Part shown: positions 16,250 through 38,823 of the stretch, piece by piece | Layout: every line of letters starts with the position of its first letter | How positions within the stretch are numbered: the stretch's first letter is position 1 | Assembly: GCA_017447165.1 (NCBI GenBank) | Contig: JAFSOD010000004.1 | Location: forward strand, 243,267-307,266 | DNA: 64,000 nucleotides | DNA from: Bacilli bacterium | GTDB lineage: Bacteria; Bacillota_I; Bacilli_A; RFN20; CAG-826 | Direction: 5' to 3' | Notes under the pieces: generated by a model | Seen by the model: the letters and a program-made list of their open reading frames with translations, nothing else | Databases searched by the model: none | What the model was told of the DNA's origin: nothing | Position numbers and translations under genes: made by a program

Positions 16250-17242
16250 TTATATTGTTTTGAGTTCTTCTTCTATTTGTTTTAATCCGTTTATAACTTC
16301 TTCAAAAGAAGGTGGTGTTTCAAAAAACATTTCCATCATCTTTTTATAATCTAATTCTATGATTTTTAATCTCTCTTTTGATGGTAATAAAGCAATATTA
16401 TTTAAGGTGACTCCTTCGATACCAGACCAAGAAGTACGATAATTCTTTGTTTTAAATAACTTAACTTCTTCAAAAAGGTCCTTTTGATTAACAATATCTT
16501 TGAAGAACTTTGATTTATAAATCATATAGATATCGTAATAATGTCTTGAATATCTATTTGGTGTCTTTTTATCCATCGGTCTATTGCATTCAGCGAATAA
16601 AATTAATAGTTTTTCCCAAAACGTTCTAGCAATGGTGACAATGTTAACTTCAAATGGTTTTTTATTATCAACATTGAAATATCTAAAACAATAAGGTTCT
16701 ACATAAGAGACTTCTGTTGGGGTTTTGGACGCAACCGGACCAATTTCTAATTTAACAGCTTGCTCAATATAATCGTCTTTATAGGAGTTCGGATAATAGA
16801 CAAGTAAAATCATTGGGTCGTTTGGATTAGATTCTATTTTCATTCCCTTTATTGATGCGGCCAAATTGTTAGAAAGGTCTTCCTTTAACTCGTTTTGAAT
16901 AAATTCAGAACCTCTTTTATTCATTAATGTTTCAAATTTGTAATCCTGATTTTTGCTTCTACTTAAAAATACGTCTTCATCTTTAAAACCAATTTTATCC
17001 CATCTAAGGATTAGATCAACGTCTTCAGAAAACCTTTTTATAACATCATAACATTTAGACAAAGATGTGCCGCCTTTAAAAATGAAATAATCTCTATATT
17101 GCGATTCATTCAATAAATAGTTCAAAACAACACATACCCAAAAATCCTTTTCAACAATCACACTAGATACTTTCATTTCTCTGGCGGTTGTTTCAAAGAG
17201 CAACTGTCTTCTTTCTTGGCTTAAATTAATAATCCGCTTCAT
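16250..17242 (-). CDS. AbiEii-type nucleotidyltransferase toxin
   Basis: 330 residues, full length for the AbiEii/AbiGii family. FKGGTSLSK (55-63) and SEDVDL (72-77) are the nucleotidyltransferase GS...D-D motifs. A C-terminal helical region includes the RHYYDIYMI motif. AbiE systems are type IV toxin-antitoxin and phage-abortive-infection modules; MenT-type relatives modify tRNA with NTPs. The start overlaps the AbiEi stop by 4 nt (ATGA). Confidence 0.85.
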   Translation of the reverse strand: MKRIINLSQERRQLLFETTAREMKVSSVIVEKDFWVCVVLNYLLNESQYRDYFIFKGGTSLSKCYDVIKRFSEDVDLILRWDKIGFKDEDVFLSRSKNQDYKFETLMNKRGSEFIQNELKEDLSNNLAASIKGMKIESNPNDPMILLVYYPNSYKDDYIEQAVKLEIGPVASKTPTEVSYVEPYCFRYFNVDNKKPFEVNIVTIARTFWEKLLILFAECNRPMDKKTPNRYSRHYYDIYMIYKSKFFKDIVNQKDLFEEVKLFKTKNYRTSWSGIEGVTLNNIALLPSKERLKIIELDYKKMMEMFFETPPSFEEVINGLKQIEEELKTI

Positions 17243-24279: not shown

Positions 24280-24867
24280 TTACCTCCAATATTGAAAGCT
24301 TTTATGAAATAAACTGACAATAATATGACAAATTGTATGTGGAGCAAATGCTGTTAATTTATCAGCAAGCATTTCCTCGACAGATGGTGTTTTTACAATT
24401 ACGTCATCGCCACTACAAATAAGGAGGTTACTTTTAATAGGTCTTTGTTCTAATTTTTTATAACGATTATTAGCAAACAACACATCAACTATAATAGTTA
24501 CTTCTCTTTCTGTTCTTGGTGACGCATATTTGATGCGAAAATGTTTTTTAGAAATTGTTTTATTGGTGCTTCTGATTGATTCCTCAAACGATAAAAATGG
24601 AAATATTCTAGATGCTTTATTTATATAAGATTCAATGTCATAGCCTGGTTCAACTAATATGTCAACATCGGTAGATAGTCTTTTAGGCGTTTCATTTAAT
24701 AGCATTAAACTTGAGCCACCTTTAAATATGAAATCAGTACCAACCATAGACAATGTTTCAACTAAACCCAGAGCAAAAATAGATCTTTGAGCAAGTTCTG
24801 GATCAACGTTATATTTGTCTTTTATTCTTTTAATATTCTCTAGTGAGTATGTTTCTTTTTGTATCAT
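24280..24867 (-). pseudogene. AbiEii-like toxin truncated at its C-terminus
   Basis: 195 residues, against about 300 for intact relatives. The nucleotidyltransferase core is kept: FKGGSSL (48-54), STDVDI (65-70), and SVEEMLADKLTAFAPHT near the end. It then runs into an unrelated tail (CHIIVSLFHKSFQYWR) that coincides with the leader of the downstream lipoprotein. This looks like a rearrangement that removed the last third. Whether the remnant is active is unknown. It overlaps the AbiEi stop by 4 nt. Confidence 0.65.
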
Positions 24868-26042: not shown

Positions 26043-26777
26043 ATGAAAATAATACCAGAAATATTTACTTATGAAGATGTTGAAGAATTATATCCAAATA
26101 TAAAAAACTTTTATGCGTTCGTGAATCGTGCAGCAAAAAGAGGAGAAATAAAGAAAATAAAAAAAGGCCTATATGCCTTAGTGGATCGTTCTACAGGTGG
26201 GATATATGTTTCTAGATTCCAAATAGCGTCTCGCCTATTTAACGACTCATATTTTTCCTATCATGAGGCACTTGAATACTATGGTCTAACAACTCAAGTA
26301 TTTGTGTCACGTTTCACATACTTAACGCATGTATATGTTAATGACTTGGAATTTGAAAACATTGTCTACTCTTCAAAAATGAGCATGTGCAATTTAGAAA
26401 TAATTGATCGTATGAAAGAAAATGGAATTAGAGTGGTTTCATTAGAACGTGCGATTGTTGATTCAATTGATAATCCTGGCTATGCTGGTGGATTAGAAGA
26501 AATAGAATACGCTCTAGATGCTTGTAGAGATTTACATTTGGATAAAGTAATCAAGATGCTTGAATACTATGATAAAGCATATCTATATCAGAAAGTTGGC
26601 TATCTATTTGAAAAACACTTTTGGAATAGAGTGCCAGAGTCCTTCTATCAATTATGTTTATCTAAGTCAGGCAACAAAATCCAATACTTTGAATCAAAAG
26701 TAGGCTTTGCCAAATTAGTACTTAAATGGAAACTAATGGTGCCAATAGAAAGGAGTATGCCTGATGAAATATTCTAA
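26043..26777 (+). CDS. AbiEi-type antitoxin, paralogue without toxin
   Basis: 244 residues, clearly homologous over its whole length to the AbiEi at 27819-28553 (shared FQIASRLF, YFSYHEALEYYGL, RVVSLERAI and LYQKVGYLFEKHF). The N-terminal winged helix covers about 1-60. The gene ends as in the intact pair, but the toxin frame that should overlap it stops after six codons. It is therefore an orphan antitoxin, possibly still a regulator or an anti-addiction factor. Confidence 0.82.
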   Translation: MKIIPEIFTYEDVEELYPNIKNFYAFVNRAAKRGEIKKIKKGLYALVDRSTGGIYVSRFQIASRLFNDSYFSYHEALEYYGLTTQVFVSRFTYLTHVYVNDLEFENIVYSSKMSMCNLEIIDRMKENGIRVVSLERAIVDSIDNPGYAGGLEEIEYALDACRDLHLDKVIKMLEYYDKAYLYQKVGYLFEKHFWNRVPESFYQLCLSKSGNKIQYFESKVGFAKLVLKWKLMVPIERSMPDEIF

Positions 26778-26890: not shown

Positions 26891-27832
26891 CTACCTCTTT
26901 AGATTTGCTGCTCTCCACTTAGCCATTGGATGTTTAGCGGCTCTTTCTGCGTCATTTGGCTCAAATAAAAGATATGGGTCAAAGTTTCCTTTTGAGAATT
27001 CTTCTAGGTATTTATTCTCTTTGTCGCTAAGTGTGAGCAATTCTTTTAAGAAATTTATGACTTCTTCTTTTGCGACATTTAAATCAAACATGTATCCTTT
27101 AGCAAGAACCGGCTGTAATTCTTTTTTTATTGAGTCTTGTGTAATTTTATTAACATTATCAAAAGTAGCTTCATTGAGCTCAAAAATGCCATCTAATGAT
27201 AAATAGAATACTGCAAGTTTTCTAACTCTATCCTTATCTAAATAAGGCATGTATCCTTTTAGTTTATAAATATCAAATAAATCTCTCGGTTTATGTCTAT
27301 CAATAAGAGCGGCAATTTTCATGCCTAAAAGTTCAGCTTCCAAAGGAGTCTGCACCATCACTTCTTTATCGAAGTATTTAACTTTCTTTCTTATGCTTGG
27401 GCAAACATGAATTCTATCGATATAATTGATTTCAACCTTGATGTTATCTCTATTGCCAAAAGCATTTGTGTAAGAATAAGTTCTGCTCGCTAAGATAACA
27501 CTACCTCTAGATTTTTCTGGTGAGACGGCGTAACCCTCTTTTGACATAAAGTTATCTAGAGCAGACATAATAGCGTCTCTATCAACGCTCATCTTCTCTT
27601 TATCAAGGCTACCAATATAATCTAAATCGATATCAACACTTAAACGAGCGAGGTTTGTAATCATTAAATTAATCGCAGTGCCGCCTTTTAAAACAAGTTT
27701 TTCATGATATGGATCTAAATCAGAATTGATAAAGGCAAGGATATCTAAAAGCCTAATAACTTTTTCAATATTAGAATTGATAAATCCGGTTTGTTTTCCA
27801 AAATTAGAAATATAGTCTTCAGAATAGTTCAT
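26891..27832 (-). CDS. AbiEii-type nucleotidyltransferase toxin
   Basis: 313 residues, full length. LKGGTAINL (48-56) and SVDIDLDY (65-72) are the nucleotidyltransferase motifs, and RHKPRDLFDIYKL in the second half is a family signature. It overlaps its antitoxin gene by 14 nt. It is the only complete AbiE pair in this cluster. Its predicted action is NTP-dependent modification of RNA (family knowledge), held in check by AbiEi. Confidence 0.85.
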   Translation of the reverse strand: MNYSEDYISNFGKQTGFINSNIEKVIRLLDILAFINSDLDPYHEKLVLKGGTAINLMITNLARLSVDIDLDYIGSLDKEKMSVDRDAIMSALDNFMSKEGYAVSPEKSRGSVILASRTYSYTNAFGNRDNIKVEINYIDRIHVCPSIRKKVKYFDKEVMVQTPLEAELLGMKIAALIDRHKPRDLFDIYKLKGYMPYLDKDRVRKLAVFYLSLDGIFELNEATFDNVNKITQDSIKKELQPVLAKGYMFDLNVAKEEVINFLKELLTLSDKENKYLEEFSKGNFDPYLLFEPNDAERAAKHPMAKWRAANLKR

Positions 27833-28553
27833 TAGGTAGGTCTCCTTCCTCTTTTGTCATTAATTTCCATTTAGCATTTAGTTTGCCTTCACCAGGATTG
27901 CATTCTAGATATATCACCGTATTTCCCGAATGTTTTAAACACTCTTTATAGAATTCTTCAGGTATGTCATTACCAAAGTGTTTCTCAAATAAATAGCCAA
28001 CCTTCTGGTATAAAAGGTTTTTATCATAGGCTTTTAGGAGTAGCAGTACATCTTTAGGGTTTAGTTTAGGGCAGTTATCAAGAGCGTATTCCACTTCTTC
28101 TAAGCCGCCCGCTAAAGATAAACAGTCTATTGAATCTATGATAGCACGCTCTAAAGATACTACACGTACCCCTTCTTCTTTCATTCTATCGCGTATGAAT
28201 AAATCACTATTAGATTTCTTAGCTTTATATGTAACATCTTCGAATTCTAAATCGCGGGCATGTGACTTAGTTAAATAAGTAAATATAGAAACGAATGACT
28301 GATTTGCTAAGCCATAATATTCAAGAGCGTCATGATAAGAGAAATAAGCATCATCAAATAAGCGACTGGCTATTTGGAATTTAGTAGCAAAGATCATTCC
28401 GGTCGATGGATTAACTAATGCATATAGACCTCTTTTAACTTGCTTTACATCGCCTCTTTTTATTGCACGATAAACAAACACAGAAAAATCAGATGCCGTC
28501 TTGTAGGTATCTTTTAACTCATTAAAAGAAAATAGCTTAGGTAACTGTTTCAC
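27819..28553 (-). CDS. AbiEi-type antitoxin of the intact pair (GTG start)
   Basis: About 244 residues from GTG at 28553. This start aligns with the ATG of the paralogue at 26043. The promoter TTGCAA (28584-28589), 17 bp, TATATT (28561-28566) puts transcription within 1-2 nt of the GTG. The longer frame from the ATG at 28589 would begin inside the -35 box. A winged helix at about 1-60 includes RAIKRGDVKQVKRGLYALV. It represses and neutralises the downstream AbiEii. Confidence 0.82.
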   Translation of the reverse strand: MKQLPKLFSFNELKDTYKTASDFSVFVYRAIKRGDVKQVKRGLYALVNPSTGMIFATKFQIASRLFDDAYFSYHDALEYYGLANQSFVSIFTYLTKSHARDLEFEDVTYKAKKSNSDLFIRDRMKEEGVRVVSLERAIIDSIDCLSLAGGLEEVEYALDNCPKLNPKDVLLLLKAYDKNLLYQKVGYLFEKHFGNDIPEEFYKECLKHSGNTVIYLECNPGEGKLNAKWKLMTKEEGDLPNELF

Positions 28554-28560
28554 ATATAAT

Positions 28561-28589
28561 AATATAACCATAATATTACATTTTTGCAA
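28561..28589 (-). promoter_or_regulatory. Leaderless promoter of the intact AbiE pair
   Basis: TTGCAA-17-TATATT on the minus strand, with the start of transcription at the GTG start codon. No Shine-Dalgarno sequence lies between. Confidence 0.55.
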
Positions 28590-31519: not shown

Positions 31520-31525
31520 TATAAT
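31520..31525 (+). promoter_or_regulatory. -10 box of the large structured RNA
   Basis: Perfect TATAAT at 31520-31525, with only a weak -35 (TTAATA at 31496-31501, 18-bp spacer). Transcription would start near 31532, just before the 5' strand of the closing stem. Confidence 0.5.
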
Positions 31526-31527
31526 AA

Positions 31528-32180
31528 GTGATAGGCCTATCGCTCTTTTAGTTGTAGGCATGCTGCAGTGTGAACATTGATGGTTACACTGAATATATTT
31601 GAGGACAAATCATGTCCTCTCATAATCCATTGACACTGAGATAAACTATAAGCACATTGGAACCCAGTGAAGTCATCCTGCTGATGGCTGGGGCCCAGCC
31701 AAAAGAGGAAAATGATATGGGATACTGTATCACTAGTACAAGACCAGCAATGGTTTCCGGAAATAAAACACCGCTTTGGTTGGTGGCGCATTACGCTCTT
31801 CGATGTAAACAACTACTAGGTTAGGCACGACAAGAGGCTCCGTAGTAATACGTCCCATGATATGATGCTAGTGTGAGAAGCTAATGTCTACGTTCTCAAA
31901 GGAAGTGCACGCTTTGACGGGTGGTAACATCCTATAACTGACTTAGTAGGTACAAGTAGGAGAACAGCGGACTGCGATCTTATTAATGAGATAAAATGTC
32001 ATTTAGCTGAAGCTCTTCGAACGTTGGAGGACTATTTGATTCCTCCCTAGGAATGGTTAGCAATAACCCATTCCGGAAGTATAGGGGTCGCTACCTTATG
32101 CTCAGCCCGGCGTGCTAGTGTGTGAACAACAAATTAGAGTAAGTATTGTATGACGAAGGTCGCCGATGTCTTTTTTTATT
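31528..32180 (+). ncRNA. Large ornate structured RNA, ROOL/GOLLD/OLE-like size class
   Basis: About 650 nt, visibly richer in GC than its surroundings, with no plausible reading frame. Seen stems: CAGTGT/ACACTG (31566/31586), GAGGAC/GTCCTC (31601/31614), GGCTGG/CCAGCC (31686/31695), GGAGGA/TCCTCC (32026/32041). A 10-bp stem GGAATGGTTA with a GCAA tetraloop and one bulge spans 32050-32074. The two ends pair: GGCCT-A-TCG (31534-31542) with CGAAGGTC (32154-32161), closing the whole molecule, followed by a T-rich tail (32170-32185). TATAAT precedes it. Size and layout fit ROOL RNA, known from rumen and Firmicutes genomes, but I cannot confirm the family. RNase P, tmRNA and 6S were not matched. 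Confidence 0.7.
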
Positions 32181-32209
32181 TTTAAAACTAAACAAAATTA
32201 AAAGACATC
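32165..32209. repeat. Inverted repeat joining the 3' ends of the large RNA and xre
   Basis: GATGTCTTTT (32165-32174) and AAAAGACATC (32200-32209) surround an AT-rich loop. The first arm lies in the tail of the RNA and the second in the last codons of xre. It may act as a terminator for both converging units. Confidence 0.5.
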
Positions 32210-32419
32210 CCCGTTAAGGATGTCTAATGCAGAAACCTCGAAGGTCGCTGCGAATGTATTGACAACGTCAATACTCATGGTTCCATCGTTTTCGATACGA
32301 CGTAAGTTCCTTACACTATATCCAACGATGTCGGCAAGTTGGTCTTGAGTCAAGTTCCTACTTACCCTGAGGTGTTTAATGGTTTGACCCACTAAACGCG
32401 AGTTGATTAGTTTTCTCAT
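32198..32419 (-). CDS. Small XRE-family repressor
   Basis: 73 residues, almost all of it one Cro/C1-type helix-turn-helix (KHLRVSRNLTQDQLADIVGY, 16-35). The start is set by TTGGAGGACGAACT upstream. The promoter is TTGTCT-17-TAGAAT (32512-32540). Base composition is richer in GC than its neighbours and like that of the adjacent RNA. It is convergent with the large RNA and divergent from the TIR-STAND gene, so it may regulate either or both. Confidence 0.85.
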   Translation of the reverse strand: MRKLINSRLVGQTIKHLRVSRNLTQDQLADIVGYSVRNLRRIENDGTMSIDVVNTFAATFEVSALDILNGDVF

Positions 32420-32564: not shown

Positions 32565-32583
32565 GCGGACAAAAGATGTCCGC
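32565..32583. terminator. Stable hairpin between xre and the TIR-STAND gene
   Basis: GCGGACA-AAAGA-TGTCCGC, 7 bp. On the minus strand it is followed by TTTTAAGCTTT, so it could end transcription entering xre. It may instead insulate the two divergent genes. Confidence 0.45.
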
Positions 32584-35448: not shown

Positions 35449-38400
35449 TTAGGAATAATAATTCTTTATTTGCTCAAATATTAAATTATATTTCCTAACC
35501 ATTCTATTATATGTACGATCATTCATGATTATATTATATGCATTAATAACCGCATCTATATGGTTGCTATTACCAAATCCAGAGACCACTACTAGATGAT
35601 TAATAAATAAGGTCATTAATAAAGGATATGTCGTATCTTGCATCATTTCATTAACGATATTATTCACCATCTTATAGCAACGATCTTGATCAATTTCTTT
35701 CATTATCAATACATAATACATTAAGCCAAAATAAGCATCATAAAATAATGTTGGATTATCTTCCACGTTTCTTGTTACATATGGGAGATATCTTTCAAAT
35801 TGAGAAAAGATATAAGAAGCCCGATCAAAATTATCTCCGTTATGGATTGAGAATAATTCCCAACCTAAAGCTTCAAGATATTTAGAATATTCCACTTCTG
35901 TATTTAATATAGTCGCAGCTAGTGCCTCGGATTCTTCATATCGACGATAGGCGCTTAAGAATTCTTTGCTACCTAAATCTAATGTGCCAATTAATGATTT
36001 AAGAGAGGTATTTAAACCAAAATACGTTCTCATATTAGAGTGTTTAACACCTGTATGAATAAAATCTAAAGCTTTAGAAGAATACCTGTAATCATTTAAA
36101 GATGGATAGCAATACATCAATATCTCTGATAGATAGATATAGTCTTCATAAGACATCACTCTTATCACGTCATTAAGAGGATTAAGCTGTAAATAATTAA
36201 GCAGATACGTTGCAGCCTTAATGATTTGTGCGGAGCCAGTTTCGACATCGATATTGCTTTCAAGTAATAAGCGACCAGATTCAAATAAGGCGTAGTTACG
36301 TGTTAATTCATAATAATATTTTTCTAATGCTTCCATATTCTCGTTAGAAACTAGTCTAGCGATATCATTAGGGTTTAAATCCTCATTATCGTTACGGAAT
36401 AAAGCCTTAAACGGATTAGATAATACTTTATCACTCATCCCAAATAGATATGGATTATTCATTCCTACTTCATTAAATAATCTCATCCATTCCATATAAA
36501 TCATATATACGGATGAGTTAGAGTCTAATGTATCTGCGAGTAATAAGGCTGTTTTTAAAGTATTAATCACTCTTTCACGGTGATAATAATTAGATTCAAA
36601 GACTGCCTTCCTTAAGGAGATATAAGCGTACGTTAATCTTTGAGTTTTATTCAATGTTCCTTTTTCTTTATAAAATTCATCTAGTACTTCGAATAGATGC
36701 TCGATAGTCTTGACTTCTTCTTTACTAAGGAATCTCGCTGGAATCATTCTTACATAATAAGTCATATCGATATCACTACAGGTATCTAATATTTGTTTAA
36801 AACACATCGCTCCTAGTTCGTTTTCATTTAAAATCATCTTTACGATGTTTTTACTAATCATAGATTTTCTATAAGCGTGAATGTCATTATTTAATGCTTC
36901 TTTAGCGATTCTTCCACATAAGTCATATCGATTACCATAATAGAAGACATTAAATCGGTTATTATATAAGGTTGGATAATCTTTCTCATTTATGGATAAA
37001 ACAAAGTTGAGATATTCATCTTTGATTTGGTCTACTTGATCTTCTAAATAGCAAATAAGAGACCAGACATATAGATGGTTATCTTTTAATTTATAAATAT
37101 CCTTATCTCTATTAACAGTGAACAAAGACTGTAAGCCTCTAATGATGAGGGTGAAATCTAATTCTGAGAACTTCACTCCTAAACCTTTAAAGATATCTTG
37201 GATTTCCGCTTTCGAAAAACTGCATCTAGAATAAGTAAGAATCGTTAATAAAGTAATCGCAAATTTACGATCCACTCTCTCACAAATGATTCTTAATAAG
37301 TCAGTGATAATCTTACCGATTTCCTTATATTCGTGATAAATAAGGTTCTCACAATATCTGATAAACCCAGCAGTACCTTCATTATTTTGGTTAATTAGTT
37401 GGAAATCTTTCGCATCTAAAAGAACGAGTCTATCTAATAAGATATTGAGATATAAGGGATTATTCGCTTGTTTTTGAAGGGCGATAAATTTCACTAATTC
37501 ATCTGGGATAACTTTACGGTTAAATCGGGCAATGGATCTAATATAGTCATGAATAGAGTCTTGTGGGATTTTCTTTGGTAAAGAAATAATATTCCCGTAT
37601 TCTAAGCCCGGTAATATAGCGGGTTCTTCTGTTCCATTTTTACAAGCGAAATAAATATCTAATTTTTGATAACAGGGGATTTTAAGCAATAACCCCGCTG
37701 ATTCAAATGATTTGTAGATTTTAAATAACGTTACTAGACAATCTTCATCACATTCATCCGCGATAACGTAGACCGGCTTTTCGCATTCATCTAATAAATC
37801 GATAAATTTATCAACAAGAGAGTCAACATCTAACTCTTCTTCGCTTTGTTCGTGAGGAGAATAACCAAAATTTTCTCTTATTTTATAAAGCATCATCAAT
37901 AAGAGGGACTTGCTATCTTTAGTGAATGGGTCTAATTGATGGATATATGGGATAATAATCACATCATCTTGATGGTTCTTATATAAATTTTCATAGAAAT
38001 GAGATAAATAGAATGTCTTTCCACTTTTCTCTTCTCCTTTGATAAGGAATACTTTTTGTTCCTCTAATAATGGTTTGGTGTATTCCGGTAACGCTAAAGG
38101 AGTGTAGAACTTCGCATTTTCTAAGTATCTTCTACTCGCATTATTAATCGCGATTTGTTCTATATCTAAATGCCCTTTTTGTGAACCTAAATCTTTTTCA
38201 AATATATCGAGCAAGTCTTTTTCTACTTGTCTTTCAAAATCTTCTAGTCCAATGACACGGTGATTTTGAGCGTCCCACTTCGCTTTATAGGTTCTCACAT
38301 ATTGAGGGTAGAGGGATTTGATTCTTTCTTTGAGATTAAAAATTCTTGTTTTATGTTCCGAAGATTCTGCTTCATATTTTTTCTTATCTTCTTCACTCAT

Positions 38401-38823
38401 ATTAGACTTATCTAATTCTCTAAAATAGAAGATAATTCTTCCTTCTAAATCCGGATTAAGTAACGCGCCATATTCGATTTCAAGTTCAGTGACTGACATC
38501 TCTTCATTTATCTCGATCCCTTTAAGTAAGGCAGCTTCTTTTAATAATTCTTTTTGAGGAATCCAGCCATATCTTTCACCGATAAAGACAATCATATATG
38601 GTTTACAACCATCAATCTCATCTAAACAAGAATTTAAGACTTTTTTCGAGGATTCTAATTCACTTAATTCCGAAGTATCCACTCCCCATCTTAAATCACC
38701 AAAATAGACACGTTCTCCATATTGTGATAAAGCATTATCTAAATAGGGTGAAATACGTGAATGCAAAAGATCTCTTTCTTGTTGCATATCAACAAATGTT
38801 GAAGAAGCAAATACGAGTCTCAT
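35449..38823 (-). CDS. DUF4062-STAND NTPase (large NLR-like protein)
   Basis: 1124 residues. The N-terminal DUF4062 domain (1-135) holds VFASSTFVDMQQERDLL, VYFGDLRWGVD, IVFIGERYGW and VTELEIEYG; the last two resemble TIR-like folds. The STAND ATPase has P-loop GEEKSGKT (263-270), Walker B VYVIADECDED (351-361) and winged-helix-like segments to about 600. The rest is helical repeats. Such proteins are predicted conflict or abortive-infection sensors. No Shine-Dalgarno is present, and a TAAAAT box lies close to the ATG. It is flanked by direct repeats and is convergent with the TIR-STAND gene. Confidence 0.8.
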   Translation of the reverse strand: MRLVFASSTFVDMQQERDLLHSRISPYLDNALSQYGERVYFGDLRWGVDTSELSELESSKKVLNSCLDEIDGCKPYMIVFIGERYGWIPQKELLKEAALLKGIEINEEMSVTELEIEYGALLNPDLEGRIIFYFRELDKSNMSEEDKKKYEAESSEHKTRIFNLKERIKSLYPQYVRTYKAKWDAQNHRVIGLEDFERQVEKDLLDIFEKDLGSQKGHLDIEQIAINNASRRYLENAKFYTPLALPEYTKPLLEEQKVFLIKGEEKSGKTFYLSHFYENLYKNHQDDVIIIPYIHQLDPFTKDSKSLLLMMLYKIRENFGYSPHEQSEEELDVDSLVDKFIDLLDECEKPVYVIADECDEDCLVTLFKIYKSFESAGLLLKIPCYQKLDIYFACKNGTEEPAILPGLEYGNIISLPKKIPQDSIHDYIRSIARFNRKVIPDELVKFIALQKQANNPLYLNILLDRLVLLDAKDFQLINQNNEGTAGFIRYCENLIYHEYKEIGKIITDLLRIICERVDRKFAITLLTILTYSRCSFSKAEIQDIFKGLGVKFSELDFTLIIRGLQSLFTVNRDKDIYKLKDNHLYVWSLICYLEDQVDQIKDEYLNFVLSINEKDYPTLYNNRFNVFYYGNRYDLCGRIAKEALNNDIHAYRKSMISKNIVKMILNENELGAMCFKQILDTCSDIDMTYYVRMIPARFLSKEEVKTIEHLFEVLDEFYKEKGTLNKTQRLTYAYISLRKAVFESNYYHRERVINTLKTALLLADTLDSNSSVYMIYMEWMRLFNEVGMNNPYLFGMSDKVLSNPFKALFRNDNEDLNPNDIARLVSNENMEALEKYYYELTRNYALFESGRLLLESNIDVETGSAQIIKAATYLLNYLQLNPLNDVIRVMSYEDYIYLSEILMYCYPSLNDYRYSSKALDFIHTGVKHSNMRTYFGLNTSLKSLIGTLDLGSKEFLSAYRRYEESEALAATILNTEVEYSKYLEALGWELFSIHNGDNFDRASYIFSQFERYLPYVTRNVEDNPTLFYDAYFGLMYYVLIMKEIDQDRCYKMVNNIVNEMMQDTTYPLLMTLFINHLVVVSGFGNSNHIDAVINAYNIIMNDRTYNRMVRKYNLIFEQIKNYYS

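Follow-up and report, generated by a model that had tools for sequence, protein, structure and literature searches.

A chromosomal ROOL RNA and its convergent XRE-type neighbour, a probable dedicated transcription factor

The ROOL RNA and its covarying structure

The stretch of DNA analysed here (the window, 64 kb in length) carries a large non-coding RNA, a small gene of the XRE/Cro type that converges on it, and two palindromes, one upstream of each (Table 1). A cmscan search of the window against Rfam gave a single match, to ROOL (RF03087), at positions 31639-32182 of the plus strand. The match had a score of 208.4 bits, the cut-off being 99.1, and an E of 1.2e-45; it was end-complete over the whole model (1-574). 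With such a full-length, gathering-level match, the large RNA of the window is a member of the known family ROOL. An earlier, sequence-only reading of this DNA had rightly named ROOL among its candidates; the candidate new RNA class that it had also entertained was rejected, because the RNA is matched by the Rfam model of ROOL at gathering level and over its full length. With the covariance models of GOLLD, OLE and raiA no match at gathering score was obtained in the window, ROOL alone reaching one. The genome (1.30 Mb, 96% complete) contains one ROOL copy. A blastn search for close relatives of the window RNA in sequenced phages or plasmids returned none. One protein of the window shares 97% identity with a protein from the assembly "Erysipelotrichaceae bacterium isolate RUG11432", so that the host is a relative of that kind; RUG assemblies are presumably rumen-derived, and the host is taken here to be a rumen Erysipelotrichaceae-like bacterium.

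Table 1 Features of the ROOL/XRE locus (positions are those of the window)
Feature	Position	Strand	Remarks
Candidate operator AGGACA-AATCA-TGTCCT, upstream of ROOL	31602..31618	.	Same element before 19/19 copies of the order
Putative weak -35-like box CTCTCA	31617..31622	+	Touches operator; consensus in relatives CTCACA (4 of 6)
Predicted -10 box TAAACT	31642..31647	+	32 nt after operator centre; phasing test; TATAAT in most relatives
ROOL RNA (predicted)	31654..32177	+	About 524 nt; start from -10 phasing and P1, end from U-tract
Closing helix P1, 5' strand ACAUUGG	31654..31660	+	Helix 1; 7/7 pairs with double-sided changes
Hairpin-loop UGAGA	31874..31878	+	Pairs with junction UCUCA 31894-31898; 95% paired
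Non-nested pairing strands	31910..31913 with 31966..31969	+	97% paired, 25 double-changed cells, 19 sequences
Variable linker	31970..32005	+	Column identity 0.39 vs 0.70 elsewhere; least conserved part
Linker flank GCUGA	32006..32010	+	Pairs with UCAGC 32102-32106; 97% paired, 19 sequences
Terminal GAAG hairpin	32151..32162	+	Covarying, helix 22
Closing helix P1, 3' strand CCGAUGU	32163..32169	+	Helix 1
U-tract, predicted ROOL 3' end	32171..32177	+	Sequence
Small XRE/Cro-type helix-turn-helix protein, 73 aa	32198..32419	-	Convergent with ROOL; proposed ROOL transcription factor
XRE gene terminator hairpin	32203..32225	-	Formed by the last codons of the gene
Second candidate operator CGGACA-AAAGA-TGTCCG, upstream of XRE gene	32566..32582	.	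Exact genome site

The description of the RNA as GC-rich, strongly folded and non-coding was borne out. Its GC content is 0.449 as against 0.326 for the window, a value attained by 0.16% of equal-sized windows, and its single-sequence fold has a z of -3.1, with none of 20 shuffles as good. Across the copies no sign of a shared protein frame was seen, the stop-free stretches (46-120 aa) differing from copy to copy.

Covariation among homologues, by which the sequence-only reading had proposed to judge the RNA, is extensive. Nineteen ROOL copies of the same taxonomic order, including that of the window, were aligned (alignment A2); the 18 further copies all score above the gathering score. As the Rfam structure, projected via a single cmscan alignment, fitted poorly in places, RNAalifold was used on the 19-sequence alignment. 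It predicted 123 pairs, with 96.4% of the cells paired. Double-sided compensatory changes were observed in 88 of these pairs, compared with 53 (sd 3.4) in shuffled and 25-37 in slid controls, in a set of 19 loci that are not independent because related loci share ancestry. The covariation score was 0.566, versus 0.232 in the shuffles and at most 0.122 when slid.

The ends of the molecule differ from those initially proposed. A length of about 524 nt is favoured, because promoter, closing helix and tail fit that size, in place of the 650 nt and the 5' boundary given before. The ROOL of Lactobacillus salivarius is 520 nt long as determined by RACE (PMC5643018). A pairing that had been drawn between 31534-31542 and the 3' end at 32154-32161 does not hold, the 5' stretch being shared by no relative and the 3' stretch being part of the terminal hairpin. 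Likewise, the TATAAT at 31520-31525 that had been taken for the promoter is not a box at fixed spacing in the relatives, in which the conserved part corresponds to 31602-31647. The T-rich tail is present as described, and a terminator scan called no standard plus-strand terminator at this U-tract. The 10-bp stem with a GCAA loop at 32050-32074 is also present, albeit that in relatives only its upper half, GGTTA-GCAA-TAACC, is kept (alignment by eye).

Several contacts recall the published ROOL cages (PMC12286853, PMC12515178, PMC12191101), in which members of the family assemble into hollow particles of six or eight chains. In the cryo-EM structure, the counterpart of the variable linker lies disordered within the cage, and a contact between the linker and the internal loop J17/18 is named in the same paper (PMC12286853). 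By position, the partner of the linker flank would be J17/18, provided that the numbering has been matched correctly. The contact between the hairpin loop UGAGA and the junction UCUCA, with changes on both sides in three of five pairs, is of the same kind as the inter-chain kissing loop reported for ROOL, the numbering of the two not being mapped onto each other. The ROOL of the window probably forms a cage as well.

The XRE gene and the genomic setting

The convergent XRE gene, which is the constant partner of ROOL, and its operator had both gone unnoticed in the sequence-only reading. Its product matches HTH_3 of Pfam (3.8e-8; 33.7 bits, cut-off 23), and the nearest known proteins include the PezA antitoxin, the 434 repressor and SinR. 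Its last codons (DILNGDVF; 32198-32225) double as a terminator hairpin. LSL_1884 of L. salivarius (locus L159, 27914-28186), a protein gene of another subfamily, ends alike, with GACATCC...GGGGATGT followed by a T-run.

The genes flanking ROOL vary among the copies, the XRE gene being the sole constant neighbour. The two are convergent in 16 of 17 pairs located on the same contig. In most loci a gap of 9-50 nt separates the ROOL match from the 3' end of the XRE gene; elsewhere the gap reaches about 2.2 kb. Within the genus, where ROOL was sought with the covariance model, it was found in 3 of 19 genomes; the XRE gene occurs in the same three and in equal copy numbers (1, 1 and 2; Fisher p 0.001). 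The search for ROOL across the order relied on a 15-base motif and on the protein, as a consequence of which a ROOL without an XRE gene might have been missed outside the genus. The exact ROOL motif was present in 7 of the 279 genomes of the order, all seven of which encode the XRE protein. The protein alone led to nine more genomes, in eight of which cmscan located ROOL within 1.5 kb. In the ninth (G146), ROOL resides on another contig, some 20 nt behind an operator, and was located by an operator search and cmscan. Two further genomes, G070 and G071, came from a profile search in the class, and in both of them ROOL is adjacent to the gene. ROOL is present in each of the 18 genomes of the order that encode a close XRE homologue, and the RNA and protein distance matrices correlate (Mantel r 0.64, p 0.005). 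Weaker XRE relatives in the class (E above 1e-15) had no ROOL nearby in those tested, which makes the link specific to this XRE subfamily. Viral contigs yielded one weak match to the protein (40% over 50 residues), at a locus without ROOL. It is likely that the chromosomal ROOL gene is paired with a dedicated transcription factor in the form of this 73-aa XRE protein.

A defence island had been described around the RNA; it is real at the window locus (AbiE genes, SoFic, TIR-NB-ARC, DUF4062-STAND and PDC-S01) and is not a general property of related ROOL loci. The position of the window ROOL, between SoFic and the TIR-STAND gene and with several AbiE genes in the same island, might be read as a sign that ROOL and the defence genes constitute one anti-phage system, the more so as some other copies have Fic, DdmD-like, Druantia-like, HEPN and type I restriction genes beside them. 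This is unlikely, as for many copies no recognised defence gene was seen among the neighbours sampled and no defence family is constant beside ROOL, the XRE gene alone being so. The defence-free neighbours comprise aminotransferase, glycosidase, ABC transporter, nucleoside hydrolase, rpoB and ribosomal genes. Since many copies stand among such housekeeping genes, defence is not a constant theme. The TIR-STAND neighbour was sought in viral contigs and not found there.

Some details of the defence genes deserve mention in their own right. The AbiEi/AbiEii-type toxin-antitoxin genes of the window are clustered (16250-17242, 24280-24867, 26043-26777, 26891-27832 and 27819-28589), apparently as repeated pairs. 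A protein of 1124 aa (35449-38823), with a DUF4062 domain and a STAND-like region, has no PADLOC match and is encoded beside the TIR-NB-ARC-TPR gene; it is possible that it represents an undescribed defence gene. A TnsA-like endonuclease gene is located upstream of two ROOL loci, L071 (13255-14205), which also has a DdmD-like helicase, and L074 (426-1394), which has a Druantia DruE-like helicase.

Prophages and phages of many kinds are described as carrying ROOL (PMC12286853), and the distribution of ROOL in the genus is patchy (3 of 19). The copy of the window could thus have been left behind by a phage, as part of a decayed prophage. The odds are strongly against this: no phage structural or integrase gene was seen among the window neighbours tested, the window has no tRNA, the RNA structure is intact with compensatory changes, and promoter and partner gene are conserved over an order. 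A location in a phage or a tRNA array, which is a frequent though not a defining association of ROOL, does not apply to the window locus. For comparison, 33 viral ROOL loci were recovered by a sequence motif and kept on the basis of motif plus terminal hairpin, not each by cmscan. In the stretch examined, 31 of these 33 have tRNA genes around ROOL, and none of the 33 has the XRE protein or the palindrome. The cellular copies of the order are almost free of tRNA neighbours; the sole loci with a tRNA near ROOL are L156 (G070, at about 2.5 kb) and L149 (G085, at about 0.9 kb).

Operator, promoter and the sign of control

The palindrome upstream of ROOL precedes all 19 copies in the form (A/C)GGACA-N5-TGTCCTCAC or a near form. 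The 1.30-Mb genome has just two exact GGACANNNNNTGTCC sites, of which one (31603-31617) precedes ROOL and the other (32567-32581) the XRE gene; in G045, too, a near-identical palindrome stands in front of the XRE gene. In four genomes of other orders (loci L120-L123; G534, G357, G429 and G553), XRE relatives with no ROOL seen nearby have the same palindrome before their own gene. As these relatives keep it, the site is tied to the protein independently of ROOL. GGACA-N5-TGTCC is most likely the sequence bound by the XRE protein.

The distance from the operator centre to a TATAAT-like -10 box is 31-32 nt in nearly all 19 copies (34 and 36 in two), while the RNA body is separated from the operator by anything between 28 and 74 nt. 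For 18 copies, the -10 scores at the fixed offset add up to 94 of 108, as compared with a mean of 58 and a maximum of 66 in 2000 shuffles; in the remaining copy, that of G070, AGGACATAAAAAGTCCT is accompanied by TATAGT at 31, as judged by eye. The -10 box of the window itself is weak (4 of 6), and a better-matching TATAAG lies 5 nt downstream. A good -35 is absent from the ROOL promoters, the best being CTCACA at a spacer of 18-19 nt. The ROOL promoters have the layout of a class II activator promoter, with the operator at a nearly fixed distance from the -10 box and beside a poor -35.

The arms GAGGACA/TGTCCTC could in principle make a 7-bp hairpin at the 5' end of an RNA that starts further upstream, at the TATAAT of 31520 with its TTAATA at 18 nt, in which case the XRE protein would bind RNA or be unrelated. 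That is very improbable. The arms are invariant or carry uncompensated changes (GGCCA in G085, CGTCC in G034 and G014b), and this lack of covariation makes a protein-DNA site more likely than an RNA stem. Moreover, relatives do not share the sequence further upstream, the spacing of the palindrome is almost constant relative to the -10 box and variable relative to the RNA body, and the site also precedes XRE genes, including those without a ROOL nearby.

With the -10 box placed as in Table 1, transcription would begin near 31654, where P1 has its first base, and the operator centre would fall near -44. This is the place where proteins of the lambda CI type activate by touching the polymerase, lambda CI at PRM being a case of class II activation. 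The resemblance to that system includes a small XRE/CI-type protein, a palindrome near -42 to -44 with a weak -35 beside it, and an autoregulatory site; the differences are that the target in the window is a large RNA and that activation is here a proposal. In the proposed mechanism, a dimer of the XRE protein would sit on the palindrome, whose centre is some 44 bp upstream of the ROOL start and which adjoins the poor -35, and would recruit RNA polymerase as lambda CI does at the promoter of its own gene. The site before the XRE gene would provide feedback on the XRE protein itself. Once switched on, ROOL would fold via P1 and its conserved loop contacts and probably make a cage.

The sign of control could be the opposite one, with the XRE protein silencing ROOL, in prophage-repressor style, until it is removed by a signal. 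Many small XRE proteins act as repressors, PezA, the 434 repressor and SinR are among the nearest known proteins, the palindrome touches the -35 region, a placement that suits a repressor, and an autoregulatory site fits. Repression is a serious alternative, though a less probable one in view of the almost fixed spacing between operator and -10 box and of the poor -35 with its 18-19 nt spacer, as found in activator-dependent promoters. In addition, HTH and ROOL levels are positively correlated in L. salivarius, albeit for an HTH of a different subfamily: the four strains highest in expression of the neighbouring HTH gene are also highest in that of ROOL (PMC5643018). Because of the fixed spacing, the poor -35 and this correlation, the XRE protein would somewhat more likely be an activator than a repressor of ROOL.

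Comparison with known systems and meaning

A known counterpart for comparison is ROOL env-120, an octamer in cryo-EM (PMC12286853). The RNA of the window shares with it the full-length covariance match, the closing helix, the conserved loop UCGCU, a pseudoknot by the linker and a linker flank paired with the presumed J17/18. It is shorter (about 524 vs 659 nt) and, unlike env-120, it is located outside a tRNA array, with its own promoter, a conserved operator and an XRE partner gene.

A precedent for a small HTH gene beside ROOL exists: LSL_1884 was noted in this position in L. salivarius in 2017 (PMC5643018). As in the window, the ROOL of L. salivarius UCC118 is cellular and of similar size, and the HTH gene lies just downstream of it (PMC5643018); at this megaplasmid locus ROOL scores 130.4 bits. 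In contrast to the XRE gene of the window, LSL_1884 belongs to another XRE subfamily (it gave no match to the profile) and is on the same strand as ROOL, and the GGACA palindrome is absent from the ROOL/LSL_1884 locus. Besides LSL_1884 (PMC5643018), no earlier report of a regulator beside ROOL was found in the literature searched. For a convergent XRE gene and an operator conserved across an order no precedent was found either, in a literature search that lacked the original 2017 description of ROOL. With PezA, the 434 repressor and SinR the window protein has in common the XRE fold as judged by sequence; it differs from them in being a single-domain protein of 73 aa with no toxin partner seen. 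Its palindrome was compared within the window only.

ROOL ranks with the largest known natural assemblies made of RNA alone, and for it no protein binding partner had been identified (PMC12286853). A transcription factor dedicated to ROOL, with an operator that is nearly unique, would offer a genetic handle that reveals the timing of cage production, sets cellular ROOLs apart from those of phage tRNA arrays and allows controlled expression, and it would make the role of ROOL easier to test. The operator search has already exposed a ROOL that does not adjoin its regulator (G146). The ROOL of this order might, as a tentative view with somewhat less than even chances, be a domesticated cellular RNA rather than a phage one, a cage made on demand under a one-protein switch that controls almost nothing else in the genome. 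If so, the inducing signal and the function could be read from the switch.

The XRE relatives of other orders that carry the palindrome have a RING_SCO0854-like gene (L120), a phosphoesterase gene (L122) or a DUF2828/DUF7788 vWA gene (L123) downstream. These neighbours possibly form a common stress regulon, and the vWA- or RING-type genes beside the switch relatives hint at a shared stress signal.
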